A stretch of DNA of 20,358 bases from Pilaira anomala. Taxonomy: Eukaryota; Mucoromycota; Mucoromycetes; Mucorales; Mucoraceae. This document shows, one piece after another, positions 2,280-19,662 of the stretch; the first letter of the stretch is position 1, and the number at the start of each line of letters is the position of its first letter. Both the position numbers and the translations under genes were made by a program. Under the pieces are notes generated by a model, which saw nothing but the letters and a program-made list of their open reading frames with translations, did no database searches and had not been told where the DNA came from. Location: assembly GCA_025716855.1 (NCBI GenBank), contig JAIXMQ010000166.1, forward strand, positions 1 through 20,358, in the 5' to 3' direction.

Positions 2280-2298
2280 GTCTCTCGGAGCTCGACCT

Positions 2299-2312
2299 AG
2301 AGAAGGAGCGAC
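2299..2312 (+). promoter_or_regulatory. Polypurine tract before the 3' LTR
   Basis: A purine-rich run (AGAGAAGGAGCGAC) lies 20 bases after the pol stop codon and directly before the TG that opens the LTR. In LTR retrotransposons this tract primes plus-strand DNA synthesis. The call rests on position and composition; the tract has a few pyrimidines near its end. Confidence 0.6.
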
Positions 2313-2362
2313 TGTCATGAACCCGAGTTCCAGGATCTGTCATAGACCCGAGTTCTAGGATT
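2313..2362 (+). repeat. 25-bp tandem duplication at the LTR edge
   Basis: Two adjacent 25-bp copies begin TGTCAT at 2313 and 2338 and share CCCGAGTTC and AGGAT. They differ at 4 of 25 positions, all transitions. The first copy is the extreme LTR end, the part integrase must recognise. Confidence 0.85.
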
Positions 2363-2439
2363 AAGTCAGTTACCGGTTATCTGGATCCGTTGTGTAATGT
2401 TATGTGTGTTGCATGAATGACTCAAGTAATAATCTGGTC

Positions 2440-2745
2440 CTAGTACCCAGCTCCCATGTACCCGTATCTTGTACTATGTTCCCATGTTCCCTTGTACTCT
2501 CGTACCCAGCTCCCCTGTACTCTGTTCCCATGTATCTTGTAACCAGTTCCCATGTATCTTGTAACCAGTTCCCATGTTCCCTTGTACTCTCGTACCCAGC
2601 TCCCTTGTACCCAGTTCCCTTGACAAGCATCTATTCCCATGCTTCCTTTGTACTCTGTTCCCATGCCCCTTGTATCCAGTTCCCACATCAAGTTCCTGTT
2701 CCCATGCTGTCTTGTACCCTGTTCCCACGTCTTGTACCTTGCATT
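2440..2745 (+). repeat. C/T-rich minisatellite within LTR U3
   Basis: Degenerate tandem units of about 20-22 bp contain GTTCCCATG, CTTGTA and CCAG elements. One 22-bp unit (TTCCCATGTATCTTGTAACC plus AG) occurs twice perfectly in succession near 2526-2569. A longer block with CCCTTGTACTCTCGTACCCA recurs near 2480 and 2578. The plus strand is strongly depleted in G. The overlapping open frames on both strands are by-products of the repeat and are not genes. Confidence 0.85.
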
Positions 2746-2785
2746 AGTTACGTCTTATTACTTAACCTTAATAGTTGTCATTTAA

Positions 2786-2793
2786 TATAAATA
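2786..2793 (+). promoter_or_regulatory. Putative TATA box of the LTR promoter
   Basis: TATAAATA lies downstream of the U3 minisatellite and about 45 bases before an AATAAA signal (2838-2843). This spacing fits an LTR promoter followed by the R region. No transcript data are available. Confidence 0.45.
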
Positions 2794-3619
2794 GACAACA
2801 TTTTTATAACTTCTTTTCTGTATTCAAGATCTTATCTAATAAATCATTTCTTACTTCACTTCTCTCTCTCTCTCTTATTTACTTTCCCCTTTATACTATA
2901 ATAGTATTTATATTATTATAGGTATAATTCTTTTTCCTTTGTATCAGATAATCAATCCCCTTGTTCCCTTGCCTGTTCCCCTCGTCGTCCGTGACAGACC
3001 CATCTTTCCTTTTTTTCATGCTCGACTTGATAGAAAAAAGAAATATTGCTTCAGCAAACAGATTTGTCGTTGCAACCAAAGGAAGAGAAAACCTGACTCA
3101 GAAAGACATTGTAAATCAAGCTACTGGAAAGTTGAACAAGAATATTGTATCTTCAGTACCGGCACAGATTCGTTCATCCTGCGCTTACAAAAGAAAAAAC
3201 TTTTTGGATTTACAAGCCATTTTTGAGAAACTTGGAGCTCCTCAGCTATTTTTAACTTTTACTTGCGATGATAAGAGTGCTGATTTCAAAAATTTACAAG
3301 ACGAAGGTATGAAATTCCCTTGGGAAGACCCAGTGTTATTTTCGCTTCACTTCAGAGAAAAATGGCTTGAATTCTTTACAAATTATATTTGTAAGCATTT
3401 TGCTAAACAAATTGGTGGAATCAATGATTTTAGTTGGGTTATGGAAATTCAAGACAGAGGTAGTCCACATATCCATATGGTGTTATGGACAAAAAAGAAT
3501 GTTCAAGAACTTATAGATATGGAAATTGTTCATACTTGGTTTCCTGAAGGTTCAAGTATTCGAGATCCTCTAATGCATAGCTTAGTAAATACATTGCAGA
3601 TACATAGGTGTAATGATAA

Positions 3620-3675
3620 GTAAGTTTAAGTTTTTATTGTGAAGAATGCAGTATTCACTCTTTTTAAATAAATAG
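3620..3675 (+). other. Spliceosomal intron 1 of the Helitron gene (56 bp)
   Basis: The donor is GTAAGT and the acceptor AAATAG. Removing it joins the two flanking frames (a phase change between them) and yields a continuous NDNYCKRGDPTKKCRFGYPK segment, the expected Rep sequence between the HUH and tyrosine motifs. Confidence 0.85.
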
Positions 3676-4187
3676 CTATTGTAAGAGAGGCGATCCTACA
3701 AAGAAATGCAGATTCGGGTATCCTAAGCCATTCTCTCCAGTAACGGCTCTCGACACTGAGCAGCGATGCACTTATAAGCGTGATGTGGGTGACGCTTATG
3801 TTAACAATTACAATCCCTATTTACTTGCAACATTTCGTACCAGTATGGATATTCAATATAATAACGGACCGCAAGCTGTCAGATATTTAGCAAAATATTT
3901 AGCAAAAGATGATTATGAAGCTAAAATTTTATTAAAGGGAATACAACAACAAAATCAGGGATATTATAAAAGAACTTCATATGTGAGCGAAAGGGAACAT
4001 TACTCAACTAGAATTGTCGGTGCAGTTGAAGCTACATATGATGTTCTTGGCTGGAGAAAACATAGTAATTCCAGAAATGTTATTTTTATTAATACAAGTC
4101 TACTTGGTCAAGATAGTAAACGTATTAGAGATGATATAAAAAGTGTAGATCCTGATTCAGATGACATATATTCTAGAACAAATGTTG

Positions 4188-4263
4188 GTAAAGTATTACA
4201 TACACAATTAAATATAGTAATTATAATAATTATACCTAAATCTAAATTAAAAAAAAATATTAG
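4188..4263 (+). other. Spliceosomal intron 2 of the Helitron gene (76 bp)
   Basis: The donor is GTAAAG and the acceptor ATATTAG. Splicing gives SRTNV-DIYKKRNGAS in frame, and the alternative read-through ends in a low-complexity isoleucine run and a stop. The intron body is extremely AT-rich. Confidence 0.8.
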
Positions 4264-4928
4264 ATATCTATAAGAAACGTAATGGTGCAAGCGACTTAAC
4301 TATGCCAGAGTTCTTTATGTTCTACAAGCGATATTATAAAAAAGACAGTTTTCCTATTATTTCTGATGTAAGCCGAGACTTTTACCCGAACCCCTTACCC
4401 AATTTTGTTTATAGCTCAAAACAAATCTATCAGTTGATTGTTCAAAAACCTTATGTATGGAGAACGTTTAATCAAAGTGAAATGAACGGAGAGAGTTTTT
4501 ATTACCAACAAGTCGTAACTAAGAAAGCAATCTACCGCAGCACATTTGAAAAAGAAAAAGGAGCAATGAGGTCTTGGAAAGGTAGTCTTGGTGAATTTCT
4601 TTGTTCATATAAATCACTAAAAATTTTTCAAACTTTAGATTATTATGAATATTTAATAAATCTTCCAGAAGGTGGGATTGAAGTGCATAGAAGAGTAAAC
4701 ATACAGTCATTAAGTGATGTTGCTGACGTAGAAAGAGGTTTAGAAACTTGTCGTGGAGAGCTTATAGCCATGCTAACCAGTGCTAACAATAGCCAAAGAA
4801 GTGTTTACAAACAAATAATTTATGAACTTCGAACAAATTCAACGGCTTTTGTATCTGGTGCCGCAGGAACTGAAAAATCTTTTGTATTGCGAATGCTCGA
4901 AAGGCATTATCGTTTAAAAGGATACAAA

Positions 4929-4996
4929 GTAAGTAAAAACATTAAGATGTGCTAAAAAACAATACATAATATTAATTTTTTGACTCTTTGTAATAG
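4929..4996 (+). other. Spliceosomal intron 3 of the Helitron gene (68 bp)
   Basis: The donor is GTAAGT and the acceptor TAATAG. Splicing joins RLKGYK to VFKLAPTGVAAHN, the conserved helicase stretch after Walker A, and restores the frame. Confidence 0.85.
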
Positions 4997-6098
4997 GTTT
5001 TCAAATTAGCTCCCACAGGTGTGGCTGCACATAATATATCAGGCGAAACAATTCACCGTTTTTTTGGAATAACCAATAGGTCTTCAGTTCCAAATTTTAT
5101 CAAGCTTGATGAATATGTCAAACTATATCCCAAGATGCTGCTTCTTATTGACGAATACTCAATGATTAGTGCAAAATTACTTGAATCTATAAATGAAGCA
5201 TCTATGAAAACGACTCAAAGAGCAACAAACATGGGCGGAATAAAAACAATATTCTTTGGTGATGTAGCACAACTGTTACCTAAACAAAAAAACGAAGGAT
5301 TAATATGGTAGTCCGAAATTTACACATCATCAAATAGATATAATCTTTTAGATCCTGTCAGACAAAAAGAAGCATATTTTGTTGAAATTTTAGAAAAAGT
5401 TAGAAATTATGTGTTTGATCAATCAGTCATTGAATTCATTAGCAGCAGAACTGTCCATAAGAATGAGCTACCTCTTTTCTGTCTCCGTTTATATACAACT
5501 AGGGAGAGGGTACGAATTGCTAACGAAAAAGACTTTAAAGACTTTCCTGGTGAAGGCCAAAACAATGATGCTTTCGACTCATATGTGGGAAACAAAGAAT
5601 CCGCAAAAAGAGCTTTACGAGAAACACGACTTCAAGAATATTTATTTCTTAAAGAGAATATGCCTGTTATGCTTATTCATAACTTGAATGTCGCTCTTGG
5701 TTGGGTCAACGGTACTATCGCTGCGGTGGAATATATAGAAGAGGAAAATATCTGCTTGAGGAAGCGTCTACCTGAAGGTGGTGATTCAATGTACTGGATA
5801 CAAAGAGTCAGTAGACAGGTTCCTAACACCAGTTACATCAGAACTCAATTTCCAATTGTCCCAGCCTTTGCCTCTACTATTCACAAATTTCCAAAGCGCA
5901 ACAATTGATTGTGTCGGAATCCATTTAGATAACATGCTTTCCCATGGCCAACTCTATGTTGCTATGTCTAGGGTCCGTAAAGCAGAAGATTTGTTTTTTT
6001 TCGGTGCGGATATACCTTTGAGTATAAAAAGAAAATTTGGAGCAGATAATGATGCAGTTGAAATTATCAGAAATCAGAATTCGGGATTATGCTTTTAA

Positions 6099-7061
6099 TA
6101 CACCTTTACAAATATATCCCAATATCTTATATCCTAGTATCCCTATAATATCTTAATTTTACAATATCCTATCCAGTACTATATAATTAAAACATACTAA
6201 TCATACAATAAATAATATAAAACTCAAATTAAACCTAGCATTTATATCCTTAAGGAGTAAAATTCTTAGATTTAGCAAAGAATAATATCAGTTTCTTGAA
6301 TAAGGATAATGTGGTTAGACTCAAGCACAAACTATAGGTCTGAAAAATCCTCGATCAATAGAACAGTACAAAAATGGAAAGGCCCCTGAAGAGAGAGCAT
6401 TATGATGGATGGTCACAGCCACAGACACATTTTCGTCTAGACGATTTTTTTTTTTTTTTTTTTTTTTTTACCTGCTTTATACTCAGAGACCCAAATTACT
6501 TAATGCATTTTGATCCTTTACGTATGCTTCTTGTTTATTTCACACCCTTATTCTTTTTATATTGTATAAGGACTTTTATATTTTTATATACCTTTTCATA
6601 ATGGTCTACTCAAATATTGTTACTGTGATTTTTTTTTTCCTTCTTTGTACGAGCTTTACCCTTGAGGATCATTTCTCAATCATAACTTTCGATATTTATT
6701 TCCACTATTAAGAGCTTATTCTAACAGACAGAAGACAATTTGTTAATGAACTTATCAAATATATACTTTCCGTCTAAAAAAATATACTGACAACTGATGA
6801 GTCCCATGGCAACAATTCACTACATTATACGAATGAGCAAAGACATAAACTTCTTTTTCTTTGACAAATAGTATATATTTACGAAGCTCTAGTAAAGCTT
6901 TAATATATACAAGCAATTTTGGTCTAAGGCATACATACAACCATGAAGTAGGCCCATATTCAATTTTTTTTTTTTTTTATAGAAGAAAATAAACAGAACT
7001 GTTATAATTTTAGGTAGAAAAAAAATTACTTTTTGAAATTTATGTATGTAAAAAAAAAAAA
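6099..7061. other. AT-rich stretch after the Helitron gene, no gene seen
   Basis: I find no supported coding sequence on either strand. It holds a perfect 10-bp palindrome CGTCTAGACG (6434-6443) followed by a 25-T run (6445-6469), and further A/T runs. A Helitron 3' terminus (hairpin then CTRR) should lie somewhere here, but I cannot place it with confidence. Confidence 0.6.
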
Positions 7062-7255
7062 AAGTTGTTTGATAAGTCTCCAAAATTGTTTGCTGCAAAC
7101 AATTAATCCGTATATTTTTTTCTTTTCCCGTCGTTTTCGGGTATATTAAAAAAAAAGAATAGTTGTTTGTAAAACGAACAATATTGTTTACAATTTCAAC
7201 ATCAATTGTTCGATTTGTTACCCAAGTTGTTTACAGCGAACAACCAATCCGCCAT
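7062..7255. repeat. Cluster of TTGTT...AACAA palindromes
   Basis: At least five half-sites of the type GTTGTTTG or its complement lie within 194 bp. The clearest is AATTGTTTGC-T-GCAAACAATT (7084-7104), a perfect palindrome with 10-bp arms. GTTGTTTACAGCGAACAAC is near 7225-7243, and TTGTTTG-TAAAA-CGAACAA near 7163-7181. Two of them are followed by the same tail, (C/T)AATCCG, so they are also direct repeats. The cluster ends where the neighbouring transposase pseudogene loses homology. Confidence 0.75.
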
Positions 7256-9025
7256 AGTGTCTACTTTCTAGAAAATGTCTAGCACAGCAAACAGATGCCC
7301 TTCCTGGATAGGGATTCTTACAATCCAACTTCCACTCGTTTCCTTCCAAATCATTCAGACACTGATTTCTTTCTTCTAAAATTTTTTTGATACCTAATAG
7401 AATCAAAAATTTATTTAAGAAAAAAATTATATAACTAATAATAAATATTTAGAAATAATTTTTACCTTTAAAATACTTTTCTTTACGAACTACAGACTTT
7501 CCTTTTCTGTTTTTTTATAGTAGAAAGACTGTTGAATAATCTTGCCATTGCTTAATTTGACAGAGGTATCTCTAAATTGATACTTGTCTTGAACTGTCGA
7601 GATCTTTTCATTTAATGTCATGCGACTAGCAACAAGAGCGTCATCAGCATAGGCAGAGTGATTGGAACTGTTGTCAAATAAGAACACGGCAGTACAGCCA
7701 GGATGCAAAAGATTGAAAAGTTCAATTACATCATCCTTAAGCTGTGCCACCATGTGCTTATATGTCCACCAGCTTTAAACATAACTCTTGATGTTCTTCC
7801 ACCGTATTTCATTGTTCCATGACAAGGGCATTGGAATTCACTTATCATAATGGAAGACCCTTGCCCCTTCTTTCTAATGTAATTTTCACCTTCTATTAAC
7901 CAAAAGATTCTTTTACCATCATTGGCGTAAAAAGTGCTTTCATCATGTGTTACGAAAACAATCTTTTTGGCAACATGTTCTTAAACAGGTTCCATTACTT
8001 TTTCTTGTTGCTCTCCTTCGTAAAATTCAGAACGTTCCATATACTCGACCATTCTTTTACTCCATTTTTCTCTATACTCAACAACATCGGGTCTTTCATG
8101 GCCATCAAAGAAAATGGCTTTTTCATTCTTGCGATATGAATAACCCCATTCATATAAGTAATTAGCTAATGTAGTTGCACATACATTACCTGTTACTCCA
8201 AGAAGAGAAGGAACAATTTCATCGCCAATAAAATTCAAAACATTGTCAATACTTCTGTACTGAGGTAAAGTTGTTTTGATTTTTTCTATTATTTTTAACT
8301 TCACATCATTATCATTCATAAAAGAAACTCTCTTGACGTGAGCACTTTGACAATGATCGGATAAGATTTTTTTATCAAGAAACTCGGCAGACCAATTGAG
8401 AAATACTTAATATCTATAATGCTTCGAACAATTAGGCCAAAGGTGGTAGGCGGCTTTCTTAGCGGATTCAATTTTGAGAAAACCTTCTAATCTAAAATTA
8501 CAATACAATTGGATAGACAAGTACCTAGCTCTATTATAAACATTAACATGGCTATTTTCATGCTTCTTATTCATTGTAGGCTTCGTATATTCAATTAAAG
8601 TGCTATAAAGATATTTGATCTTAAAGTTCTTTTTCATGAGATCCTACTTCATTCTTTTTTTTCTCATTAATATTGATTTCTTGAGGAACAGCAGTAAATC
8701 CAAAACTAGTTAATTTACCAGAGGGATGTACTTTTTGAGCTTCTTTCTGTCTTCTCCAAATTGTCGTTGTTGATTTCATGTCATAATTGCCTTTTCTAGG
8801 TCTTTTGTATGACAAACCATTATCGAAACGAACAGCATTAATGTCCAAATGGTTAACTTCAGGAACCAAATTGGTGTTATTTTCAACATTACGAAGTAAT
8901 TCTTCTGTATCAGCTTGCCAAATTTCCCAATCTTCAGGGTTCTCTTCAACAACGTGAGTAATTTTTCCTTCATCATCTCTAGCTCTTTTTCTGATAGCTA
9001 ATTGTCTTTTATTAAGACCAGGCAT
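7256..9025 (-). pseudogene. Fungal DDE transposase pseudogene (FDGHERPDVVEYR / DNSSNHSAYADDALVASR family), truncated
   Basis: Reading right to left, the start ATG at 9025 opens a charged N-terminal region. Then come a helix-rich DNA-binding-like region, FDGHERPDVVEYREKW (about 8110-8060), VTHDESTFYAND (about 7955-7920), KKGQGSS, FDNSSNHSAYADDALVASR (about 7680-7620), a 72-bp intron (7394-7465), then GIKKILEERNQ and CCARHFLESR. The THDES and FDNSSNH motifs resemble the first two catalytic aspartates of Tc1/mariner-like DDE enzymes, and I recall the whole pattern from repeated fungal proteins, but I cannot name the superfamily surely. Lesions: frame change near 8630; stops after HYRY (about 8408) and after EKVMEPV (about 7980); a frame change before MVAQLKDD (about 7755); a frameshift in the A-run at 7511-7517. 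The third acidic residue and C-terminus are missing. Non-functional. Confidence 0.8.
7394..7465 (-). other. Spliceosomal intron in the DDE transposase pseudogene (72 bp)
   Basis: On the minus strand the donor is GTAAAA and the acceptor CTATTAG. Splicing joins KEKYFK to GIKKILEERNQ in the frame that also continues into CCARHFLES, which is the expected protein order. The intron body is almost entirely A and T. Confidence 0.7.
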
Positions 9026-10126
9026 TTTGAATAGTTATTAGTTTTACGTAATAAATCAAGTCAAAAACTGGTTAATAGAGATGCGCACTTTAGTTACTGT
9101 TATATGTGACCCGTAAAAATGAATTTACTTTAACTTTCGCGAAAAAATTTATTTCCAAAAATTTCTTCCAATATTATTGGATATTTATGTTACGCACAAT
9201 GCTTACGGTTTTTTAATTAACCGCCCTTTTTTTTCAAAATCAAGCATTATCTTATGTCCTCCCTGCTTAAAAATTAAAAAACCGACCAATTTTGAACTTG
9301 ATCAGAAGAAAATATTTTTAATAAAATTAGCAATCCTAACTTTGACTTTTTTTAAGAATACTTTAATTTAAATATGTTAAAAAAAATAAAGTTGATATCT
9401 TTATTTTTGGGTCGTCTCATCTCTCTTGAAAATACTCCAAAAAATTTTAGGTTTAAGTCCGATGGCACGTTATCTGCAATTTTGATTGTATGATTCTCTG
9501 TTTTCAGCAATTGAGCTAGTCTAGTTTTTATAAAAAAACCTCCCCTCCCCAATGTAGTTTTTCGAAAAACGACAGCACAACAGTTACTGATTTGAAGGAG
9601 CAAAAAGCAGCTACTACTTCCTCTTCTAGCCATGTTTACTTTCAAAATAATATCCTCGTTGTTTAATAAAATCCTACACTTGAGATAAATATATATATGA
9701 AAAGAACTGTAGCAAAAAGAGACAACGAGAGGCTCTTCTCTTGTTTATTAGATAAAATAGTTACATTTATTGAACATAAGCAGTTCAACCCGTTATAATA
9801 GAAACTAGTAATTACTTTTACTGTATGACTCTTAATGTTTTTTATTAATATTAAAAGTTCTTCAAAATAATTGGAGGGGTTGATTGATAGTGATTTTTAG
9901 GGTTTGAAGTTAACGCGAGTCTTGGGTAAGTTGCTATAGTTATTGATACTTCAAAGATGGTATAAAAGAACGTGTATAACAACCAATGGTGGCCCCAATG
10001 CCATATTGAAAGCAATATCTTAAAAGGTTTTGGAAAAGAAACAGGCAGTTTACAAAGACTTTTAGAATTATACTAAAAAAAGGAGTTAGTTTTAATCTGG
10101 CCAAATATTAAAAATTAAGAGCTAAA
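9026..10126. other. AT-rich spacer, no convincing gene
   Basis: This is presumably the upstream flank of the minus-strand transposase pseudogene plus unrelated DNA. A minus-strand open frame at 9352-9645 (about 97 codons, starting MKVNMARRGSSS) has no recognisable domain, and its AT-rich end looks non-coding. I saw no terminal inverted repeat matching the palindrome cluster at 7062-7255. Confidence 0.5.
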
Positions 10127-10488
10127 AGTGTTGAAACTGATCCAAGCCCAGACCATTACACCCTTTAAGAAGACGATGTCTTCCAAAGGGCCTCAAACAC
10201 TGACAAAAAATAGCTTAACATCAAAAGCCTATCAATCTAGGCAAGAGTGTGATGAAACTGATCCAAGCCCAGAGCATTACACTCGCAAGGAAGGACTCAG
10301 TACACTCTTTAAGAAGACGATGCCTTCCAAAGAGCCTCATCACGAAAAACTATAAGTCATCACCAACTATCCATCACTTGGGATTAAAAAGTGTTGAAAC
10401 TGATCCAAGCCCAGAGCATTACACCCGCAAGGAATGACTCAGTACACCCTTTAAGAAGACGATGCCTTCCAAAGAGCCTCAAACACTG
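10127..10488. repeat. Three spaced copies of a 76-99 bp repeat
   Basis: Copies lie at 10127-10202, 10246-10340 and 10390-10488. All share GAAACTGATCCAAGCCCAGA and a CTTTAAGAAGACGATG(C/T)CTT block. The first lacks about 20 bp in the middle. Copies 1 and 3 begin AGTGTTGA and end TCAAACACT, so each has short inverted ends. Spacers between copies are 43-49 bp and differ from each other. Short open frames across the array follow the repeat and are not supported as genes. Confidence 0.88.
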
Positions 10489-10548
10489 GTAATAAATAAC
10501 TGGATGTCGAATATAAATGACAACAGCTACATAACCGTCCCTATATTA

Positions 10549-10584
10549 CACTGTACAATCCCCTACAATAATTCGTGTCAAAAA
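10549..10584 (+). repeat. Left TIR of transposon A
   Basis: It starts CACTGTACAATCCCCTACAA and continues TAATTCGTGTCAAAA. It is an exact inverse match to 11850-11879 over the part of the right TIR that is present. It is preceded by TA, the usual Tc1/mariner target duplication. Confidence 0.9.
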
Positions 10585-10677
10585 AATTAATTTCCGATTT
10601 AATTTAAATAGTAAGGAATGGCATGTATTCATTCTTTTTTCACTTCTTAATCATTAAATCATTACAAAACTTTAGAT

Positions 10678-11673
10678 ATGACTGAAATAAAGAGTACTAA
10701 AAAAGCTTATATAAAAGGAGGGATGAAAGCTAAGGATATTGCAACTGAAGTAAATCTGCCGCTAGGCACCGTGTACCGAATTATTAGAGAAGGTTACACA
10801 GAAGACGAAGTACCTCGTGAACAAAAAAGAGGACGTCCCCCAAAGTTTTCAGATAGAGATATTAGATCAGTAGTTAACTATGCAAAGGGTCAAAGAAGAG
10901 CAACTTTGGCAGAAATTACGAATGAATGTAACATTGATGCTCACCCTAACACCATTCGAAAAATGTTAAAGAATGCAGGGTTTAACAATAGAATAGCGCG
11001 TATGAAGCCTTTCTTAATGCCAAGGCATATCGTCATGAGGAAGATATATGCTAATGAGCATTTAGAATGGACACTTGATGACTGGAAGCAAGTAATTTGG
11101 ACTGATGAATCAACCTTTGAATTGGGCAAAAATTATCGGCAAATTCGAGTATGGCGTAAGGTGAATGAAGAGTTTGATCAAGACTGTATAGGATCAACAT
11201 TCAAAAGTGGAAGAACTACAGTGATGGTATGGGGGGCTATAGCTCACGGTAAGAAGTCTGAGCTAGTAATTTTAGACAAGGGAAGGCGTACGGCGACTGA
11301 TTTTGTTGATCAAGTGTATGAAGGTCCATTACTTGGATTTATGGATGGATTCACTGATCCTATTTTGATGTAGGACGGTGCACCCATACATAGAGCGAAA
11401 ACATCGCAGCTTTGGAGAGACGAGCATGACTTGCAGAAGCTTGTATGGCCTGCTCAATCACCAGATTTAAATCCTATTGAAAATTTATGGGCGATCATGA
11501 AAAATGCTGTACAAAAGTTACACAATCAGTCTGACACCACTGAGGACCTGATAAAAAATATCAAGGAAGCATGGGAGAACATTCCTATGGAAACTATTAA
11601 CCATTTGGTTGAGAGTATGCCAGCACGGGTTGGCGCTTTAAGGGAAAATAAAGGGAAAAGCACCCGGTATTGA
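10678..11673 (+). pseudogene. Tc1-type DD34E transposase A with one premature stop
   Basis: The enzyme would bind the TIRs and cut and paste the element at TA sites. The 331-codon frame is of normal Tc1 length. An N-terminal helix-turn-helix region (GGMKAKDIATEVNLPLGTVY) is followed by a GRPPKFS AT-hook-like linker and a second helix-turn-helix (ATLAEITNECNIDAHPNTIR). The catalytic core has D143 (WTDESTFELG), D233 (DGAPIH) and E268 (SPDLNPIENLW); 34 residues separate the last two, as in the Tc1 family. The only lesion is TAG at 11371-11373 (codon 232), immediately before the second catalytic Asp. Transposase B has GAG at this point, so a single GAG-to-TAG change explains it. The truncated product would lack two catalytic residues. 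A copy lacking the stop may exist elsewhere in the genome. Confidence 0.93.
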
Positions 11674-11712
11674 TTACTCCTTCGTTGTATAATTTGTATC
11701 AAAATAAACCTA

Positions 11713-11757
11713 TTTTTTTTTACATCTATTGAAAGCTATGAAGCGTATCTTTATTTT
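11713..11757 (+). repeat. Conserved 3' noncoding block, copy in transposon A
   Basis: A stretch starting TTTTTTTTACATCTATTGAA and ending in TATCTTTATTTT, about 40 bp after the transposase stop, matches the equivalent region of transposon B at about 41 of 44 bases in inverted orientation. The two elements have unrelated TIR sequences, so this block is better conserved than their ends. Confidence 0.75.
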
Positions 11758-11849
11758 GTATACTTTGAAGTGCTGTTATTTAACTGTTTTTTAAATGAAA
11801 GAGAAGAAAAAACAAAAAAAATCGATTTTTAATTCTTTGTTTTCGGTGA

Positions 11850-11879
11850 TTTTGACACGAATTATTGTAGGGGATTGTA
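11850..11879 (-). repeat. Right TIR of transposon A, interrupted
   Basis: This is the inverse of the left TIR from TTTTGACACG to GATTGTA. It stops at TA (11878-11879), which doubles as the left target duplication of transposon B. Confidence 0.9.
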
Positions 11880-11913
11880 CAGAGGCCGAAGAAAATTAAT
11901 GAGAAACATTTTT
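11880..11913 (+). repeat. Left TIR of transposon B
   Basis: CAGAGGCCGAAGAAAATTAA followed by TGAGAAACATTTTT. It matches the inverse of 13176-13209 with one difference, at position 11. Confidence 0.92.
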
Positions 11914-11994
11914 TTTTAAAGAAAAAAAAGGCAGTTTCTGTGTTTATAATTCATTGCCTTAGAAAACAATGCAACAACTATACCTCCAAGTCAA

Positions 11995-12038
11995 TAAAAA
12001 TAAAGATATGCTTTATAGCTTTCAATTGATGTAAAAAA
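11995..12038 (-). repeat. Conserved 3' noncoding block, copy in transposon B
   Basis: On the minus strand this reads TTTTTTTTACATCAATTGAA and ends in ATATCTTTATTTTT. It lies downstream of the transposase B stop, mirroring the block at 11713-11757 in transposon A. Confidence 0.75.
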
Positions 12039-12079
12039 AAAAAGAAAATTTTGAAATTGAATAAAATTTAATTGAAGGA

Positions 12080-13087
12080 TTAATAACGGGTGCTTTTTCC
12101 TTTATTTTTTTTTAAAGTAGCAACTCGTGCAGGCATTGTATCAACCAAACGGTTAATAGTCTCCATAGGAATGTTCTCCCATGCTTTCTTAATATGTTTT
12201 GAAAGATAACTTGCCGTATCAGATGGCTTATGAAGTTTCTGTACTTCATTCTTCATAATCGCCCAAAGATTCTCAATAGGATTCATGTCGGGTGATTGGG
12301 CAGGCCATATTATCTTCTGCAACTTATGGTCTTCTCTCCACTTCTGCAATTTCTTGGCCTTGTGAGTTGGAGCACCATCCTCCATTAGAAGAGGATCCAT
12401 AAGTTCACCCAAAAACCCGAGTAAAGGACCATCATATACTTGGTCAACAAAATAAGTGGCTGTCCGCATTGCCTTGTCCAAAACTCCCAACGGGGACTTC
12501 TTACCATAGGCTATCGCACCCCATACCATTACTGACGTTTTCCCACTTTTAAATGTTGAGCCTGTGCACTTAGGCTCAAACTCTTTATTCGCTCTACACC
12601 ATACACGAAGTTGGCGGCTTGTACCGCCCAACTCAAAGGTCGACTCATCAGTCCAAATTACTCGTTTTCATTCTTCAAGATTCCATTTAATATGGTCTTT
12701 AGCAAAAATCATCCTATTCACTACATGTCTGGACATCAAGAAAGGCTTCATACGCGCCACTCTGCTGTTAAACTTCTCCTCCTTCAGTATCTTGCGAATA
12801 GTACAAGGGTGAGCATTGATGTTACATCCATTACTAATTTCACGAAGAGTTACTCTTCTGTTTTTCGTTGCATAGCTTACCACAGACCTCTTATCTCTTA
12901 CTGAAAACTTTGGAGGACGTCCTCTTGTTTCCTTAGTAGCTACTGGATCTTTTGTGTATCCAGCCTTGAGTACTCGGTATACTGTTTTGAGGGGAACCTC
13001 CGCTTTAACTGCAATATCCTTGGGCTTCATTCCTCCCCCGCGCAATCCATTAATATAGGATTTATGGCTAGCTGTTAAATGAGTCAT
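12080..13087 (-). pseudogene. Tc1-type DD34E transposase B with one premature stop
   Basis: A 335-codon frame on the minus strand from ATG at 13087. Domain order is as in transposase A: helix-turn-helix (MKPKDIAVKAEVPLKTVY), GRPPKFS linker, second helix-turn-helix (VTLREISNGCNINAHPCTIR), then catalytic D147 (WTDESTFELG), D237 (EDGAPTHKA) and E272 (SPDMNPIENLW), with DD34E spacing. The single lesion is TGA at 12668-12670 (codon 140), where transposase A has TGG (DDWKQVIWTDES), so one TGG-to-TGA change suffices. Proteins A and B share long stretches, especially near the C-terminus (ENIPMETIN, KGKSTRY), but clearly belong to different element families. The truncated product would contain DNA-binding domains only, so it might bind TIRs without cutting; that is speculation. 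Confidence 0.93.
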
Positions 13088-13175
13088 AATTATAATATAA
13101 TGTAATTTTATTATATGGAAAGTGACATAAGATATAAAAGTATATCATCCTTATATAATATTTTTTTCGGGGTTT

Positions 13176-13211: not shown

Positions 13212-13714
13212 CAAACACATATTCACTTATCTTAAATGACTTGCTTGCTCGAATCAAATAGAGAATTATGAATACGTGAAAAAATGAAAAAAAAAACTCC
13301 TTGGCAACAACGACATCAACAGTAATAAAAGCAGTCATTTTAATTTGGTGACGTCAAAACGTATTAATTGATTTGCGCAGTTTTATTTTTTATCTTCTCA
13401 TTCATGTAAAGTTTTCAAAGTCTTCCATATAATTGTCCAACCAAATGAATTCTAAATTTTATAAGGGACAAGAAGGCACCTGTCCGGACTCCATCGACAA
13501 TTTCCTGAACCAAATTAGGTTCCTGGTCCATATACTTTTCGTACCTAATTAGGTAAAACTTCCCTTAATTTTTTCGATTTTTTCAATTTTCTCAATTTTT
13601 TAATTTTTAAAAATATGAAGTCACTCGAAAAAAAATTCCATGCCGGGGGGGGAGATAAATATGAGGGCAATCTTGTTTAATTCTAAGACTTTCGTACACT
13701 TTAAATTTCTAATC
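13212..13714. other. AT-rich spacer with small palindromes, upstream of the HMG-box gene
   Basis: No gene is supported. It contains a perfect 12-bp palindrome ACCTAATTAGGT near 13543 and a related imperfect inverted repeat (AACC...GGTT) around 13504-13530, both built on CAAATTAGG/CTAATTAGG. A G8 run near 13645 precedes the gene. Any promoter of the HMG-box gene should be here, but I see no clear TATA box. Confidence 0.5.
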
Positions 13715-14869
13715 ATGGATGAATATTCTGAACAATCTCAAAAATTAATCAAAGACGCGTTAGATAACTTAATTGCAGTAGTGGCTAAGGTAACATCTGA
13801 TGAAAACGTAACGCAGGACTCTGTTGAAGCTCAAATTGTATTACTTGGTCAAGTTAAGTCTTTTAATTTGAACAGAAGCTTAAACTCTTTTAATGTTTTT
13901 TTAAAATACTTCAAAAGCGAATATGCTGATAAGAAAGAGCAATTTAAAAATTCTCATCCTGACCGTAAGTTGCTTGGGCTCTCTTTCTTTAAGAAAAAGC
14001 GGTCACTAACGTGTTCTATAAATAGTCAAATTTGCTGTAATCGCAAAACTATATTACGATAAAATTAGTATAGAGGAGAAGGAAAGATTGGTTGCTTTAG
14101 AGAAAGAGAAAGCAAAAAAATTTATTACGGAAGATGACTCTGAAAGACTCCGTGCTGGTCTACACAAGATGGATGCAATTGCCAATCGGCTCTACTTTGA
14201 TTTGAAAGTAGAATCCTTCACTGGCTACTTTATTCCAAAGAAGAAAAAAGGCGACTTTGTAGTGAAAGCAACTTTTTCAGGAGGTAAAAAACTGAGCGGA
14301 AAGTTATAAGTGTGTGATATAAATTTAAAGCAACTTCAATTTTTAGAAAAGGGCGAAGAATACCGAAATTATTTCTTAGAAAAATTCAGAAGTATATCCA
14401 AAAAAAAATTAACAGGAGAATACTGAAAAATATTCTATAATTCTTCTCTATATTAATAATGTATATGTAGCAGGTCCCCGCAAAGTTACAAAAATTCCTA
14501 CCAAGACAGCTGAGTGGAATATGAGAAGAACAGATTTGAACAAGAGATTGTTAAGCGCATACAGTGAGTAGATACCATGATTAGCAAAGCTGTACTAATA
14601 AGCTTCTGCTGGGGACCAACAAGAATGTAAGTCGAATCCCTTACGGGAGTATGCTGTTGCCCGAGAGTGCAGTAAAATGCACAGGTTGGCCTGAAGGTGT
14701 ACCATTTGCAACACCTTCGACAGCAAATGGGGATGCTGTTATTCGCCTTGAGGAGGCGTTAGACAGGAACAATGTTAAGTTTTCTGTCGTTAGAGACATT
14801 CTTCCTGGGCCTGAAGTAAATGATATTGGAGGCCCTAACGAGCTGGATGATGATTGTCATATGGAATAA
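13715..14869 (+). CDS. HMG-box-like protein with C-terminal GWPEGVPF motif, multi-exon
   Basis: I do not recognise a named gene. Inferred exons are 13715-13964, 14026-14283, 14347-14391, 14474-14563 and about 14624-14869, giving roughly 295 residues. I chose the ATG at 13715 (TCATGGA context); in-frame ATGs at 13640 and 13661 are alternatives. Residues 54-115 resemble an HMG box: RSLNSFNVFLKYF, then a basic/acidic helix, NSHPDLKFAVIAKLYYDKISIEEKERL, then a lysine-rich stretch. The usual third-helix Trp is Tyr. A later domain contains RIPYGSMLLPES and GWPEGVPFATPSTANGDAV, and the end is acidic. HMG boxes bend DNA, so a nuclear role is plausible. The last exon is in the wrong frame for the strong GTGAGT donor at 14564, so there is either a one-base indel or an unusual splice. 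It could be a host gene, a decaying paralogue or a transposon accessory gene. Confidence 0.65.
13965..14025 (+). other. Intron 1 of the HMG-box gene (61 bp)
   Basis: The donor is GTAAGT, the branch point CACTAAC (14004-14010) and the acceptor AAATAG. Splicing gives NSHPD-LKFAVIAKLYYDK, continuing the HMG-like domain in frame. Confidence 0.85.
14284..14346 (+). other. Probable intron 2 of the HMG-box gene (63 bp)
   Basis: The donor is GTAAAA and the acceptor TTTTTAG. Splicing replaces a short read-through end (KKLSGKL, stop) with EKGEEYRNYFLEKFR, a plausible continuation. If unspliced, the protein would end at 14309. Confidence 0.6.
14392..14473 (+). other. Probable intron 3 of the HMG-box gene (82 bp)
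   Basis: The donor is GTATAT and the acceptor GTAGCAG. Splicing gives FRSPRKVTKIPTKTAEWNMR in frame. An acceptor three bases upstream would add one residue without changing the frame. Confidence 0.6.
14564..14623 (+). other. Probable intron 4 of the HMG-box gene (about 60 bp), frame not closed
   Basis: The donor is GTGAGT, the branch point TACTAAT (14593-14599) and the acceptor CAACAAG. All signals are canonical, but the resulting frame stops 18 codons later, while the conserved RIPYGSM...GWPEGVPF stretch is one frame away. This suggests a one-base indel close to 14624-14640. Confidence 0.5.
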
Positions 14870-14972
14870 AAAAACTCATTTTCAGGTATAATTTTTTTAG
14901 ATCATTTTCAACCTACTGTTCGAAAATATTGTATATTCAGATATAGCAATTGCTGCATTAAAATGCAAGAAG

Positions 14973-15152
14973 TTAATCAGTCTTCGTATATTTATATAAA
15001 AGCTGATCAAATTCTATATTACGCTTAGGTTGTTCGCCGAGTATCACTTTTCTAATGGCTCCCAGTGAAATCTTCTTCCAGTATTGTTTTCTTAAGGCCG
15101 TATCTGTAGCTTTGCTTGATGTTGGTTTGTTTCCACCTTTCCCCCTCCCACT
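14973..15152 (-). pseudogene. Orphan exon-like fragment (KATDTALRKQYWKKISLGAI)
   Basis: On the minus strand a 59-codon open stretch begins right after a CATCCTAG acceptor-like sequence and ends in TAA at 14973-14975. It reads with balanced, protein-like composition: KATDTALRKQYWKKISLGAI, then VILGEQPKRNIEFDQLLYKY. No ATG opens it, which fits a last exon whose upstream exons are lost or further right on the minus strand. I do not recognise the family. It runs opposite to the neighbouring HMG-box gene, and the two 3' ends converge 103 bp apart. It could be chance, given its length. Confidence 0.35.
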
Positions 15153-15548
15153 CTAGGATGATCATTCTTTTTTTTTTTTGTACTATTTTTATCAAGCAGT
15201 AAAATGTTTATTATTGTCGACTTTGGTGAGAAGATTGCTCACTTTCGCAATATACATTGTAAAGATGAAGAACAGGCAAGTTTAAAAAATAAGTTTAGTG
15301 CAAATTCTGACAACCTATTTTGTACGTATAGTTATCACTTACAGGCGGTAAGTGTTCAAATATTACTATCTTGTACAACAGGATAATGTAGCTCTGTCAT
15401 CAAAAAACATACTGTGGTTAAAATTCTCTCGTTGGCGAGGCTCCTTTCTTTCTATGTTATTTGCCCTAAGGTATGTGAATAATAAACAACTATAAGTACA
15501 TACACTTAATTAACTTAAGCTATAATGCTCTAGACACGGCCTCCATTC
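15153..15548. other. Spacer with weak coding traces
   Basis: A 12-T run near 15168-15179 is followed by a short plus-strand frame at 15204-15386 beginning MFIIVDFGEKIAHF, which loses protein-like character after about 25 codons, near a possible acceptor. I cannot assign it. The remainder is AT-rich. Confidence 0.4.
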
Positions 15549-15800
15549 TCTAGACGATAAGCTGTAGATGATGATGATAACATTGAAACTACTCAATAGG
15601 TAAAGCTCAATAACGGTACGTACCATTGTATTACATATAAGAGACATAGTTTATTATATATTAATAAGTATGATAATTTGATTTGCCAAGGTCTTAAAAG
15701 AAAAGATTGTAAGGCGAATGTTTTGATTGATAAATGGAATCCCCATCAAGTTTCCCACGCAACATTACCTTATCAAGTACAAGTTGATCTGTGTACGTGA
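15549..15800 (+). pseudogene. FLYWCH-like zinc-binding domain remnant
   Basis: The open stretch from 15609 reads NGTYHCITYKRHSLLYINKY, then DNLICQGLKRKDCKANVLID, then VSHATLP. The pattern of a tyrosine-rich strand pair, C-x7-C-x-A and a later His pair candidate (PHQVSHA) resembles FLYWCH or related WRKY-GCM1-type fingers that head MULE transposases, though the usual Trp before the first Cys is Ile. Upstream in the same frame is an acidic DDDDNIETTQ segment broken by TAG at 15600-15602. A stop at 15798-15800 ends the frame. It is likely the N-terminus of a decayed transposase or a paralogous gene. Domain assignment is moderate. Confidence 0.45.
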
Positions 15801-17043
15801 ATGTTACGTCGGAAATAAACTGAAGACATAAGTCCTTCCAACGTTACGGTCCCGCACCTCTCCAGTGCTTACATGTAAGTTTATTATTCAAACAAATTTT
15901 AAAAAAAATTACTTATCATTTTAATTTTAGGATAATTTGAAAAGAAGAAAATCCTGCTGCTGTTGTAGGCTCTACAGATATTCTGCTTTAATTAGAGTAT
16001 GTCTGAGATTAACGTTTGTTGTTGCTGGAACATATCGAGAGTCTTTCTATTTTCGTGAGATATGCAGGGCAGGTATACTAATCGTGAAACAGTAAAGTTG
16101 ATTGAAGCTGGCTGGCTTCTTTTTTATTTTGATGCAAGAGAAACTTTATAACGACAAATTAAGCAACATACAAGTCTACTTTGATGAAACACAAAAGCTG
16201 AAAAGTGACCATATCGGTAAACCATTATATCAAACTGTTATATTGTTCAAAAGACTAACTTGAATAAATAGATACGAGATTAGCCAAAACCCCTGCTGAA
16301 TCTTTAAGAAACAGAAGGAACGGATTCAGAAGATTTTGCAAACATATAATGATAGAATGCTGAACTTTCAGGTCAATCATATATGAAGAGTTAATTATTA
16401 CGGTTCTTTTACCCAAAGAATGGTGTGAAAAAAGTTAATCATTATGTATTTTGTAGGCTATTTTTTGGGCACCAGTTTGGACACTGTTCTAAAAAAAGGC
16501 TGTAGCCTTTAGGAGATCAGCTGGAATAAAGATATTGCACTTTGACTCGGGTGGAAATGTATGAATGAAGAACAGAAAAGCCCAAAGGTATGTCAGATGT
16601 CAAAATATTGCATTGAAGAAAAAATTAACTTTTTTTAAGTGAGATGTCTTGGTTGAAAAAAAATCAGGATGGAAGGCAAAAACTTGACAAGTGCCCTTTC
16701 AAGTGCTCGAATAACAATTCAACTGCTAACAATCCCGTATCATAATCGATGAAAACTGAACGAAAACGATAAATAGCTGAAGTTCACCGAATATCACTTG
16801 GTGGCGTTTATCAGTTACGATAGAGAAGACAATGATGTTAAAGCTGACGAAGTTAATGAAGTTAATTAAGTTGATTAAGTTGATCAAGTTCGGTGTGAGA
16901 TCCCTGTAAGTGAAGCTGGTGGTGGAGCAGAAGTTGTTTTAGTAGTTGAAGACGTTGTGACCGGAGACCTCAAAGTTAACGAAGATAATATTAATCTGGT
17001 GGGGCTTGTGGATGAGACTGAAGTTAAGGATCTGCGGGAATAA
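15801..17043 (+). pseudogene. Degraded continuation of a coding gene, many stops and frame changes
   Basis: Short protein-like segments in plus-strand order suggest one decayed gene downstream of the FLYWCH-like fragment: VNVTSEIN (15796-15819), an intron-like GTAAGT...TTTTAG (15875-15930), NRETVKLIEAGWLLFYFDAR (about 16080-16140), IGKPLYQTVILFKRLT (about 16214-16261), KERIQKILQTYNDRMLNFQ (about 16310-16371), TEYHLVAFISYDRED (about 16782-16830), and an acidic end EVVLVVEDVV...DETEVKDLRE stopping at 17041-17043. The order and the FLYWCH start would fit a MULE-like transposase, but I see no catalytic motif, so the family is an inference. No functional product is possible. Confidence 0.4.
16849..16890 (+). 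repeat. 9-bp tandem repeat (GAAGTTAAT / TAAGTTGAT)
   Basis: Two GAAGTTAAT units, two TAAGTTGAT units and a partial CAAGTT follow each other without gaps. In the inferred frame they encode alternating E-V-N and V-D, with TAA stops where GAA became TAA. This is a small repeat expansion in an acidic tail. Confidence 0.8.
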
Positions 17044-18121
17044 GTATTATTGTTTGAAATAAAAGGTAAGTTACTCAAATGTAATATAATGCAATGTTCT
17101 TTTGCTGTTTTTTTTAAAAAAAAATGAATAAATTTGAGATACGCGATGTCTATAACATTAAAAAATGTATTATGGGGTTTTGTGCATTTTTTAAAAGCTA
17201 GAATTAAACACAGATATGCATTGGCATACGGCTTTATCAAAATAGTTTATAAATGAGTTTTTTATCATGTATTGCTTAGTTCATACTGTAAATTATATAT
17301 AATGATCTGATTAGACATGCGAGTATGATAATTTAATAGTGTTATGTATGAAATATCCATTTATACCTGACTTTTAAAGAAGTATAAAAACTCCAGTAGC
17401 TCTCTTTTTTATATATGTAGTAATGATGATAATTAATTCTTTGGTTCTTTCGTTATGTTCCATTGTGTTGCTATTGTTATCTTTTTTTATTTAGTACCTA
17501 CCGGTGTAGATACAATACATTAGGCTGATTACAACCGAAGGTATATCGAGGATAGAAGGATGGAATGATTTTCATTTTAACTACCTCTCTGATTTTGTGA
17601 AGACCAGAATATGTTTCTTTTAGACGTTGGATTTAGAAAAGAAAACGAATTATTATTGAGCGTAGTTTTTCAATAACTTCCACTTACTAACATATAAACT
17701 TTTAAAAAAAAATAGATTGGATGTAGATTATTATAATTACCTTCATATTTAAAGTATATTTATAATTGACAGCTTTTTTATTGAAGGGATAAATAATAAA
17801 AATTTCTACCATGTGGTATTCTAAGCGATTACTACAATTGTAGGAGTACCCAAATAATCTAAAAAGATATACTTACCATTTTCATAATCATCATTTGAAT
17901 TAACTTCTTTTTTATTATTGTTTATATTTCAATATTATAACAGGTGTTCAAACTAAATATATATGCTAACTTAATTTTTATAGTAAAAATATGTTTGTAA
18001 TACCGTGAAAAATAATATAATACTTCTATTAATTTAAACGTTTACATTAAAGTGTTGACATAATCTAAAGAAAGTTATATTATTTATCAATAATAAAACA
18101 ATTGTGAAAAATACGTATGAT
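17044..18121. other. AT-rich spacer, no feature seen
   Basis: I found no coding, RNA or repeat signal on either strand. The minus-strand frame at 16884-17240 is a shadow of the degraded gene and of AT-rich DNA. Confidence 0.6.
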
Positions 18122-18128
18122 AAAAAAA
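18122..18128 (-). terminator. Pol III-type T7 terminator after the tRNA-like gene
   Basis: On the minus strand a run of seven T starts three bases after the tRNA-like 3' end, the normal distance for RNA polymerase III termination. Confidence 0.5.
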
Positions 18129-18131
18129 TAA

Positions 18132-18200
18132 GCTCACATCAGAGATTGAACCCTGGGCGTGCGCGTGAAATTTAATCGCCTTACCAATTAAGCCATGGGC
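18132..18200 (-). tRNA. Degenerate tRNA-like gene (anticodon unclear)
   Basis: The minus strand reads GCCCATGGCTTAATTGGTAA and onwards. It has a good A box (TGGCTTAATTGG, 18184-18195), a D arm whose GCTT pairs with AGGC, a B box (GGTTCAATCTC, 18142-18152), a T arm CAGGG/CTCTG with a shortened 6-base loop, partly paired ends, and a T7 terminator. The anticodon arm does not pair: the loop could read TTC or CAC depending on register. It is therefore a tRNA pseudogene or a tRNA-derived element such as a SINE head. The internal promoter still looks usable. A LINE is inserted at its 5' edge. Confidence 0.5.
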
Positions 18201-18203
18201 ATT
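18189..18203 (+). repeat. Left target-site duplication of the LINE
   Basis: TAAGCCATGGGCATT, identical to 19648-19662. It overlaps the first bases and A box of the tRNA-like gene. Confidence 0.9.
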
Positions 18204-19647
18204 CTTTGGCTCTCACTCTCAAGTCCAAGAGATGCTAAACCTAGCTGCATCCCACTCTCAAGAACTTGGTTACCGCTGGAGCCCGTCGAAATGTGCCATC
18301 CTCAATGCACCTTCTTCGGGTACCCCACTGTCCCTCTACGGTTCCATTCTTCCCACAGTTGACGAGTTCGTTTACCTTGGTGTTCCCTTTAGGAGTTCTG
18401 GTCTCTATGGTCCTGGTATTCTTGCCCTACGAAAGGCTAGTGCTGTCAAGACTATGGCTCTCCTCGTCTCGGTAGGTGCTCACCGTAATGGTTTCTCCCT
18501 CCTCCTCTCTTCGCGCCTGTATACCTGCTTTATCCGCCCTAAGATAGAGTATGGTTTAGCAATCTCCAATCTCTCTGGTGCAGATCTCAAGCACTTTGAC
18601 GATGCTCAGAATAAACTGGTCTCTATGTTCATTGGGGGTTCCTGGTTTAATGTTGCCAAACACATTACCTGTCTCCCTCCAATGAAACATCGGTACAACA
18701 CACTGGTTACTCGCTTCGTAAATCGTGCCAAGTATCTTCCTGAGGACTCCTTAGTGGTGTTACTGCAAACTTTACCCCGGCCACCCCGTTTAATAGGTTT
18801 CCTCCAAAAGAACCCATTATACAGGTCTCTTCCCCGGTCATCTGAACCCCTTCCAGATGTAGTCTTGCGTGGTATCATCCGCCAGTTCCTACAGACAGAG
18901 TTCGATAACGCTATGGCTAAGGCCGTCACTACTGGTCACCATGTCCTTGTACGTGCCTGCCGTCCGTGCACATCCAAACCTGATCCGATTCTTACATTGC
19001 CTATGCAACGTAGTGCACGTAGTCGTCTTGTACGATGGCGTCTTGGTCGATTCGCTAACTTGCGCGAAGAATGTCCTTGTCTCTCGGGTGAATTCATTAC
19101 TCGTTCCCATTACATCACTTGCCGTGCCATAGATCCTGCCCTTTGGGATGCAATGCCAGTGTCCCCCCGACCTGGTGTTCACCCAATTGACGCTGCCATT
19201 AACGGTCTGCCCGAAAAGGCTACCCACGGTCCACCCCCCTACTGGTCTGCCTTACTCCAATTGCTCTATGCAATCGACTGTCTTCGTCACCCTGCTGCTA
19301 GAATACCCCCAGATCCAGATCCAGGTAACCGTTGGTTACCACACGCTCCTCGACCAGCTCCTAGATGAAATATTAGTAGACTATCTTCCCATGCGACACC
19401 TCGGTGGTAAGTGTATATTATCAAAGTTCCCATCCGTTGGTTGTTCCCTGTGGATTAGAATACTCTTAGATTAGTCTTCCCGTTCCCCTTCTTCTCTCTT
19501 TTACTTTTTTTTCCTTTTATATTGGGTATATCCTAGGGTTTTTAGATCTTCCACATTTTCTTTTATAGAATTTTATCCATTATAATGTGGCAATTTATGC
19601 TCAATAGAGTCGCCGTATAATTATTTTTTATCAATAAAATTAAATCT
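18204..19647 (+). mobile_element. 5'-truncated LINE (non-LTR retrotransposon)
   Basis: Both sides carry the same perfect 15-bp duplication, as expected from target-primed reverse transcription. The 5' end is cut inside the reverse transcriptase gene, the normal result of incomplete reverse transcription. The 3' end is a 279-bp T-rich untranslated region and a short A/T tail (ATAAAATTAAATC) rather than a long poly(A). The inserted DNA is visibly richer in C and G than its surroundings. Confidence 0.92.
18205..19368 (+). pseudogene. LINE reverse transcriptase C-terminal fragment with zinc knuckle
   Basis: The frame is open from the insertion junction (FGSHSQVQE, the stretch just after the RT catalytic YADD region in LINE proteins) to TGA at 19366-19368. 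Counting from ATG 18232, it shows the RT end (ELGYRWSPSKCAIL, VDEFVYLGVPF), the thumb region (LLLSSRLYTCFIRPKIEYGL), a basic linker (RSARSRLVRWRLGRF), and a zinc knuckle C281-x-C283-x9-H293-x3-C297. There is no stop within about 388 codons, so the copy is young. It lacks the endonuclease and the polymerase active site, and no LINE start codon is retained, so it is inactive. Codons favour C at the third position, unlike neighbouring genes. Confidence 0.93.
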
Positions 19648-19662
19648 AAGCCATGGGCATTT
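19648..19662 (+). repeat. Right target-site duplication of the LINE
   Basis: TAAGCCATGGGCATT, a perfect copy of 18189-18203. The flanking bases differ on both sides, so the duplication is exactly 15 bp. Confidence 0.9.

Follow-up and report, generated by a model that had tools for sequence, protein, structure and literature searches.

Several described retrotransposons take tRNA genes as integration targets. NLTR-A of Dictyostelium purpureum is a non-LTR element with an APE-type ORF2 and an RNase H domain downstream of the reverse transcriptase (RT), and its copies are found upstream of tRNA genes, 2-6 bp from nucleotide 1 (Spaller et al. 2016, PMC5006619). The insertion sites of TRE5 lie 40-54 bp upstream of tRNA genes, with the element in the opposite orientation, and those of TRE3 40-150 bp downstream; these elements have oligo(A) tails, and the targeting of TRE5 involves ORF1 and TFIIIB (PMC5911963). 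Near the NeSL clade stand tRNA-specific LINEs with a restriction-like endonuclease, with a single tRNA type named for each: NeSL-1_TV (tRNA-Pro), LIN15_SM (Arg) and LIN25_SM (Glu) (PMC4640811). The yeast LTR elements Ty3, Tj1 and Tyl6 lie on the upstream side of tRNA transcription starts, only a few bp away, and the table of Pol III-targeting retrotransposons in the same source holds fungal LTR elements and no fungal LINE (PMC5911963). Grem-LINE1, a LINE from the Mucoromycotina, is described as surrounding centromeres (PMC7763443). In searches of the freely accessible literature, no title or opening of an abstract among the papers listed told of a tRNA-targeting fungal LINE; one paper on Grem-LINE1 mentions tRNA, but in a separate place.

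The element described here resides in Pilaira anomala, a mould of the Mucorales; the window, the whole 20,358-nucleotide stretch that was analysed, holds a truncated copy, and the 34.25-Mb assembly (225 contigs) was searched for others. Very probably, this two-ORF APE-type LINE family uses tRNA genes, together with a tRNA-like A/B-box unit in the window, as its integration target, with a proposed nick between tRNA nucleotides 14 and 15 (A14/15), a duplication that rebuilds the target, and stacking of successive insertions. The family is a non-LTR retrotransposon of the APE-type two-ORF kind: the C97 copy has an ORF1 of 386 aa upstream of an ORF2 with RVT_1 (E 1.7e-27), Exo_endo_phos_2 (2.4e-11) and Exo_endo_phos (3e-7) domains. 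Its endonuclease domains are thus of the APE family and not the restriction-like type of R2 and NeSL. ORF1 of the C97 copy has no match in Pfam. An RNase H domain is absent, at E<=0.001 in Pfam, from the C97 ORF2 frame and from the C-terminal part of ORF2 in the window, and the latter matches no Pfam family at that threshold. Among solved structures ORF2 resembles LINE-1 ORF2 best (E 1.1e-19) and an R2-type protein next (6.6e-17); the L1 clade is a candidate placement.

The LINE 5' end is marked by two 16-mers, of which the assembly contains 7 and 9 copies (16 in total). At C84, C97, C158, C192, C54, C112 and C143 the distance to nucleotide 1 of a tRNA in matching orientation is, in that order, 0, 8, 1, 4, 3, 1 and 22 bp. 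The 0-8 bp at six of these seven places is close to the 2-6 bp of NLTR-A, although only two spacers (3 and 4 bp) fall inside that range, the others being 0, 1, 1, 8 and 22 bp. NLTR-A differs in its amoeba host and in having an RNase H domain, which Pfam does not detect in the Pilaira LINE; a cut internal to the A box and a rebuilding duplication are not described in the available part of PMC5006619. TRE5 and TRE3 are likewise LINEs directed to tRNA genes (PMC5911963), but the Pilaira spacers lie outside the 40-54 bp of TRE5, the 3' junction of the Pilaira LINE is confined to a single base of the A box, and the tail of this LINE is not poly(A). The NeSL-type elements share its specificity for tRNA genes (PMC4640811) and differ in endonuclease type and in that one tRNA type is named for each; the APE-type Pilaira LINE uses several. 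Ty3, Tj1 and Tyl6 are also fungal retrotransposons beside tRNA starts (PMC5911963), but they have LTRs and integrase and dispense with target-primed reverse transcription. Grem-LINE1, set beside the Pilaira LINE by description alone, is similarly a LINE of the Mucoromycota (PMC7763443). LINEs at tRNA genes being already known from dictyostelids and from a few elements with a restriction-like endonuclease, what appears to be new here, as read from the genome sequence, is the stacking of copies, the proposed cut in the A box and the duplication by which the target is rebuilt.

The features of the window that bear on this are the following.

18204..19646, plus strand: 5'-truncated LINE copy with the C-terminal part of ORF2 and the 3' UTR, without a poly(A) tail
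18205..19368, plus strand: C-terminal part of ORF2, open, 387 aa and a stop
19369..19646, plus strand: LINE 3' UTR, terminal letters ..AATAAAATTAAATC
18189..18203, no strand: left 15-bp target-site duplication TAAGCCATGGGCATT, joined to the remainder of the tRNA-like unit
19647..19661, no strand: right 15-bp target-site duplication TAAGCCATGGGCATT, the detached 5' stub of the tRNA-like unit
18122..18203, minus strand: tRNA-like unit (A box, B-box-like motif, T7 run), the insertion target
18184..18195, minus strand (read 18195-18184): A box TGGCTTAATTGG of the tRNA-like unit
18142..18152, minus strand (read 18152-18142): B-box-like motif GGTTCAATCTC of the tRNA-like unit
18128-18122, minus strand: seven-T run of the tRNA-like unit
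13477..18203, no strand: repeat of about 4.8 kb whose right end is the tRNA-like unit and which extends about 25 bp past the LINE; 3 copies in the assembly

The first-pass annotation had placed the LINE at 18204-19647 between perfect 15-bp duplications. Those duplications are present at 18189-18203 and 19647-19661, and the left end of the LINE stands, but its right end was set one base too far, 19646 being correct. The 3' UTR terminates in AAATC, and the 3' end of the copy is 99% identical to that of a longer copy on C183. The duplication is exactly 15 bp long, the adjoining bases differing on both sides, and two other copies of the target, on C124 and C94, run through the insertion point without a LINE; the window duplication is therefore a true target-site duplication, and C124 and C94 are empty sites. 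By comparison with the other junctions, the first nick in the window would have been made after the base equivalent to tRNA A14, opposite 18189.

The minus-strand target unit does have the A box, B-box-like motif and T7 run ascribed to it, and the A box remains intact on the LINE's 5' side, as had been claimed, the 3' copy being its first half only. It is not a recognised tRNA: ARAGORN finds no tRNA gene in the window, Rfam cmscan at E<=10 finds nothing on the window or on the C124 copy of the unit, and the fold of the unit is no better than that of shuffled sequences (z of -0.35 in the window and of -0.08 on C94). It is the end of a repeat present on C75 (the window), C124 and C94, the latter two about 96% identical to the window copy. 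The C124 and C94 copies are 99.3% alike, and the repeat, which contains an ORF at 13619-14062, is possibly mobile or a segmental duplication. Long ORFs occupy positions 1-13144 of the window. To all appearance these are a Ty3/gypsy-like pol with chromodomain (3-2279), Helitron-like pieces (2952-5908) and two Tc1/mariner-like transposases (10651-11373 and 12080-13144).

A search of the assembly with the window ORF2 protein gave at least 45 matches, merged by hand to about 32 copies. Tail-type 3' ends were readable at 25 junctions: 19 came from 3' flanks and six (L040, L041, L042, L043 and two at L045) from a motif-based search that required the tail together with the motif or a known stub. Copies without a readable 3' end were left out: L011 (at a contig end), L017, L026, L044 and C97:14872. 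Directly past the LINE tail, 24 of the 25 junctions have T....YA, the antisense of tRNA T8..A14, and all 24 stop at the same A-box position, antisense and opposite nucleotide 14. No P is given for 24/25, since the six searched junctions required the motif. Among the motif-independent junctions 18 of 19 fit, against a background of 161 in 3000 nearby positions; the resulting P of 2.5e-22 is nominal, the junction base having been set by hand with the A box in view. That base is fixed independently by the exact duplications at the window and at C193. The one misfit is at C46 (L022), whose terminus lies at TGAGCACA (TGAGCACAAAACTAGC) and has no A box; no target-site duplication was found in its available flanking DNA. 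Three further family members (L020, L024 and L030) end in poly(A) and have no tRNA at their 3' end; in this branch targeting may possibly have been lost or changed. Some 210-300 bp past the poly(A) end of L030 lies a sequence that by eye resembles a tRNA in antisense, one that has an intron or a long arm; ARAGORN with introns allowed does not call it.

In the flanks of the other LINE copies tRNA A boxes thus recur in a single orientation and at a single position, the outcome for which the first-pass annotation had looked. It had named insertion into random AT-rich DNA as the contrary outcome; of the tail-type ends C46 alone agrees with this, and the three poly(A)-tailed relatives may do so too. 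Most copies with a readable 3' end lie at a fixed place and orientation in tRNA genes, and the three poly(A)-tailed relatives do not.

The tRNA stubs behind the LINE tails are of many types. Fifteen of the 24 match tRNA genes that ARAGORN calls in the loci examined, of the types Ala (two sequence forms), Thr, Phe (an 11-nt match), His, Glu and Ile. Two more match Rfam-called tRNAs from their first base. The stub GCCCTGTTAGCTCA, which we take to be Lys-like, occurs seven times in the genome: four times at the first base of Rfam-called tRNAs (C1, C84, C147 and C200), twice at LINE 3' junctions (C1 and C141) and once, unassigned, at C190. By the form of their A boxes the remaining stubs are presumably Tyr-like, Leu/Ser-like (twice), Glu-CTC-like and Asp-like, with one more left unassigned and that of the window coming from the tRNA-like unit. 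On these sequence matches six tRNA types are confirmed as targets, and the additional stubs differ from these six. Beyond nucleotide 1, CACGTG follows at 58-78 bp in 10 of the 25 3' junctions, as would be expected of a displaced native tRNA upstream region. The tail itself belongs to the element: in four of five Ala copies its last base is C (T in L031) where the gene has T, and the last tail base must then be element-coded and the tail copied from the element. Tail type loosely follows tRNA class; pairing of the tail with the D loop beside the nick was considered, and the match by eye is at most about 3 bases.

At the other end of the element a complete tRNA gene stands in most cases. The 5' side of a LINE or stack is readable at 11 loci besides the window, and at seven (C59 Thr, C192 Thr, C85 Glu, C193 Ala, C148 His, C97 Phe and C54 His) the LINE or stack abuts, head-to-head, on a complete antisense tRNA whose type is that of the stub. 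The other four (C182, C112, C13 and C46) have no abutting complete tRNA of the same type. At C182 an intact same-type tRNA-Ile, its CACGTG upstream region kept, lies about 1.2 kb before a decayed LINE. At C112 a Pro-like tRNA adjoins one end, and the stub at the other end is of another type, which we assume to be Asp-like; the first bases of this tRNA-Pro (L036:5500-5572) are altered, and the copy may be damaged. No complete antisense tRNA was found on the available 5' side of C13 or C46; at C13 a same-strand tRNA-Ala lies about 3.5 kb before the LINE. Stub and complete tRNA agree in type at eight of the nine loci that have both on opposite strands.

Truncated copies with duplications are found in the window and at C59, C148 and C193. 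Compared outward from the stub, the two copies of the duplication are alike over 15 bp in the window, 14 bp at C193, 14-15 bp at C148 and 16-19 bp at C59, the ranges arising from bases shared by chance with the tail. The LINE-adjacent tRNAs at C1, C97, C183, C143 and C158 have Rfam bit scores equal to those of several other gene copies, and so look undamaged. ORF1 gives another view of the same arrangement: for 12 of its 57 matches in the assembly a tRNA is listed no more than 2.6 kb upstream, and in all 12 that tRNA is antisense. Seven of these lie beside Rfam-called tRNAs (63 of 1882 candidates were scored and 61 called tRNAs used), where 0.28 would be expected; the other five tRNAs come from LINE-selected loci and are not independent. 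The idea of a tRNA-targeting non-LTR element in a fungus, put forward from the window alone, is borne out by the junction counts and by these antisense pairs; the target in the window itself, tRNA-like and part of a repeat, makes a weaker case than that annotation had it. More than 2 kb separates the 5'-end 16-mer from ORF1 at L052 and C158:130640-133004, and there another insertion seems to be present in the 5' UTR.

Ten of the 25 junctions are stacked. Past the stub lies ORF1 or ORF2 of another family member in seven (L008, L009, L010, L028, L029, L042 and L043), 5'-end sequence of the family in two (L025 and L041) and a truncated family copy in one (L045). Six of the LINE 5'-end 16-mers correspondingly sit behind a tRNA stub inside a stack (C59, C97, C192, C54 and twice C193), and three (C68 and twice C90) are not tied to a tRNA in the available data. 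To judge from this order, the newer LINE inserts next to the rebuilt tRNA gene and leaves the older LINE on its far side, so that tRNA stubs separate the stacked LINEs.

Position, orientation, duplications and stacks are read from the genomic copies themselves; the strand of the first cut and the priming are what we infer from them, in the following scheme. Within the A box, the endonuclease would nick the tRNA-sense strand between nucleotides 14 and 15, and the 3'-OH of A14 would prime reverse transcription of a LINE RNA that ends in a short non-poly(A) tail, mostly of the TTTAAAC or TTTCAYC type. The other strand would be cut close to nucleotide 1 or a few bases before it, and the intervening 14-19 bp would thereby be duplicated: a complete tRNA gene would remain at the LINE 5' end, head-to-head with it, and the 5' stub, with the former upstream region, would be displaced behind the LINE 3' end. 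Because the target would be rebuilt, the same gene would stay open to later insertions, and LINE-stub-LINE stacks would result.

The notion that the stub is no target DNA at all, being instead the LINE's own tRNA-derived 3' tail, might draw on the element-coded last tail base of the Ala copies and on the TGAGC common to many copies. It is very improbable and was rejected. Copies that are 99% alike (C75 and C183; C97 and C1, the latter pair 99% in ORF1) carry different stubs, so the stubs must belong to the target and not to the element; stub type also agrees with the complete tRNA of its own locus, as given above (8/9); a tRNA-type upstream region follows the stub at 10 of 25 junctions and another LINE at a further 10 of 25; and C124 and C94 are empty sites. 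Chance, that is, free insertion of the LINE in AT-rich DNA with tRNA genes merely common nearby, has a negligible probability. C46 does lie at a non-tRNA site, and the window unit is a repeat, but chance is refuted by the 18 of 19 motif-independent junctions, the seven ORF1-tRNA pairs against 0.28 and the 12 of 12 antisense pairs.

How the LINE finds the tRNA gene is a subtler matter. Tethering, in which ORF1 or ORF2 protein would bind TFIIIB or TFIIIC on tRNA genes and the A-box position would be mere geometry, is compatible with targeting as proposed here, and we give it close to an even chance, falling just short of it; contact of ORF1 with TFIIIB is reported for TRE5. Tethering would accommodate the use of many tRNA types in the same orientation, a target in the window that has A and B boxes without being a tRNA, and poly(A)-tailed relatives without the pattern. 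Weighing against it, the 3' junction lies at the identical base in the 24 fitting cases, as against the 40-54 bp window of TRE5 (PMC5911963). A junction fixed to a single base suggests a role for the endonuclease itself, and guidance by ORF1 and TFIIIB in the manner of TRE5 could apply here as well.

The native upstream region of these tRNA genes has a conspicuous element of its own. Pairs of CACGTGA, with midpoints 61-71 bp upstream, accompany 20 of the 61 Rfam-called tRNAs (0.02 expected), and such a pair is likely to be a tRNA upstream element of Pilaira anomala; nothing on it was reported among the best matches of the literature search. In the matches the paired motifs are spaced 3-4 bp apart (for example, C24:166009-166027 and C200:66475-66493). 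By eye, some tRNA upstream regions are alike over about 100 bp, also between a Lys-like stub and tRNA-Ile; the look-alikes are the L019 3' flank and L042 from 3260, and the L012 and L031 3' flanks and the region upstream of the L039 tRNA-Ala. Similar upstream regions may themselves have been duplicated.

Relatives of the LINE are found in other fungi of this group. Where a species is named for an ORF2 match at E<=1e-38, it belongs to Rhizopus, Mucor, Cokeromyces, Phycomyces or Parasitella, all of the Mucorales. In an RT tree of 71 sequences, several deep nodes of which are weakly supported (0.38-0.65), copies with tRNA stubs occupy several separate branches, including the earliest (C85) and a group with His, Glu and Asp stubs; the poly(A)-tailed copies share one branch with L026, whose 3' end is unreadable; and proteins of Rhizopus stolonifer, R. 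delemar, R. arrhizus, Mucor velutinosus and Parasitella parasitica lie among these branches. One scan of viral contigs for relatives of the LINE confirmed none. That tRNA targeting extends beyond Pilaira is a prediction, the other species being represented by proteins alone. Tentatively, and at a probability somewhat under even, we propose that a LINE clade spanning the Mucorales has an endonuclease able to recognise the A box directly and to cut after the conserved A14. Each insertion would rebuild its own target, tRNA genes would become docking sites that can be loaded again, and the 5' end of the LINE would replace the native CACGTGA-pair upstream element.

The targeting of tRNA genes by LINEs, seen previously in social amoebae and in a few elements with a restriction-like endonuclease, is now seen in a fungus, where the junction sits at a single base of the tRNA gene's internal promoter. 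Duplication of the gene start would let the tRNA gene survive and take further insertions, a natural reusable landing site for target-primed insertion in a gene family that is present in every eukaryote. The system makes it possible to ask whether an APE endonuclease reads the A box alone or requires Pol III factors.
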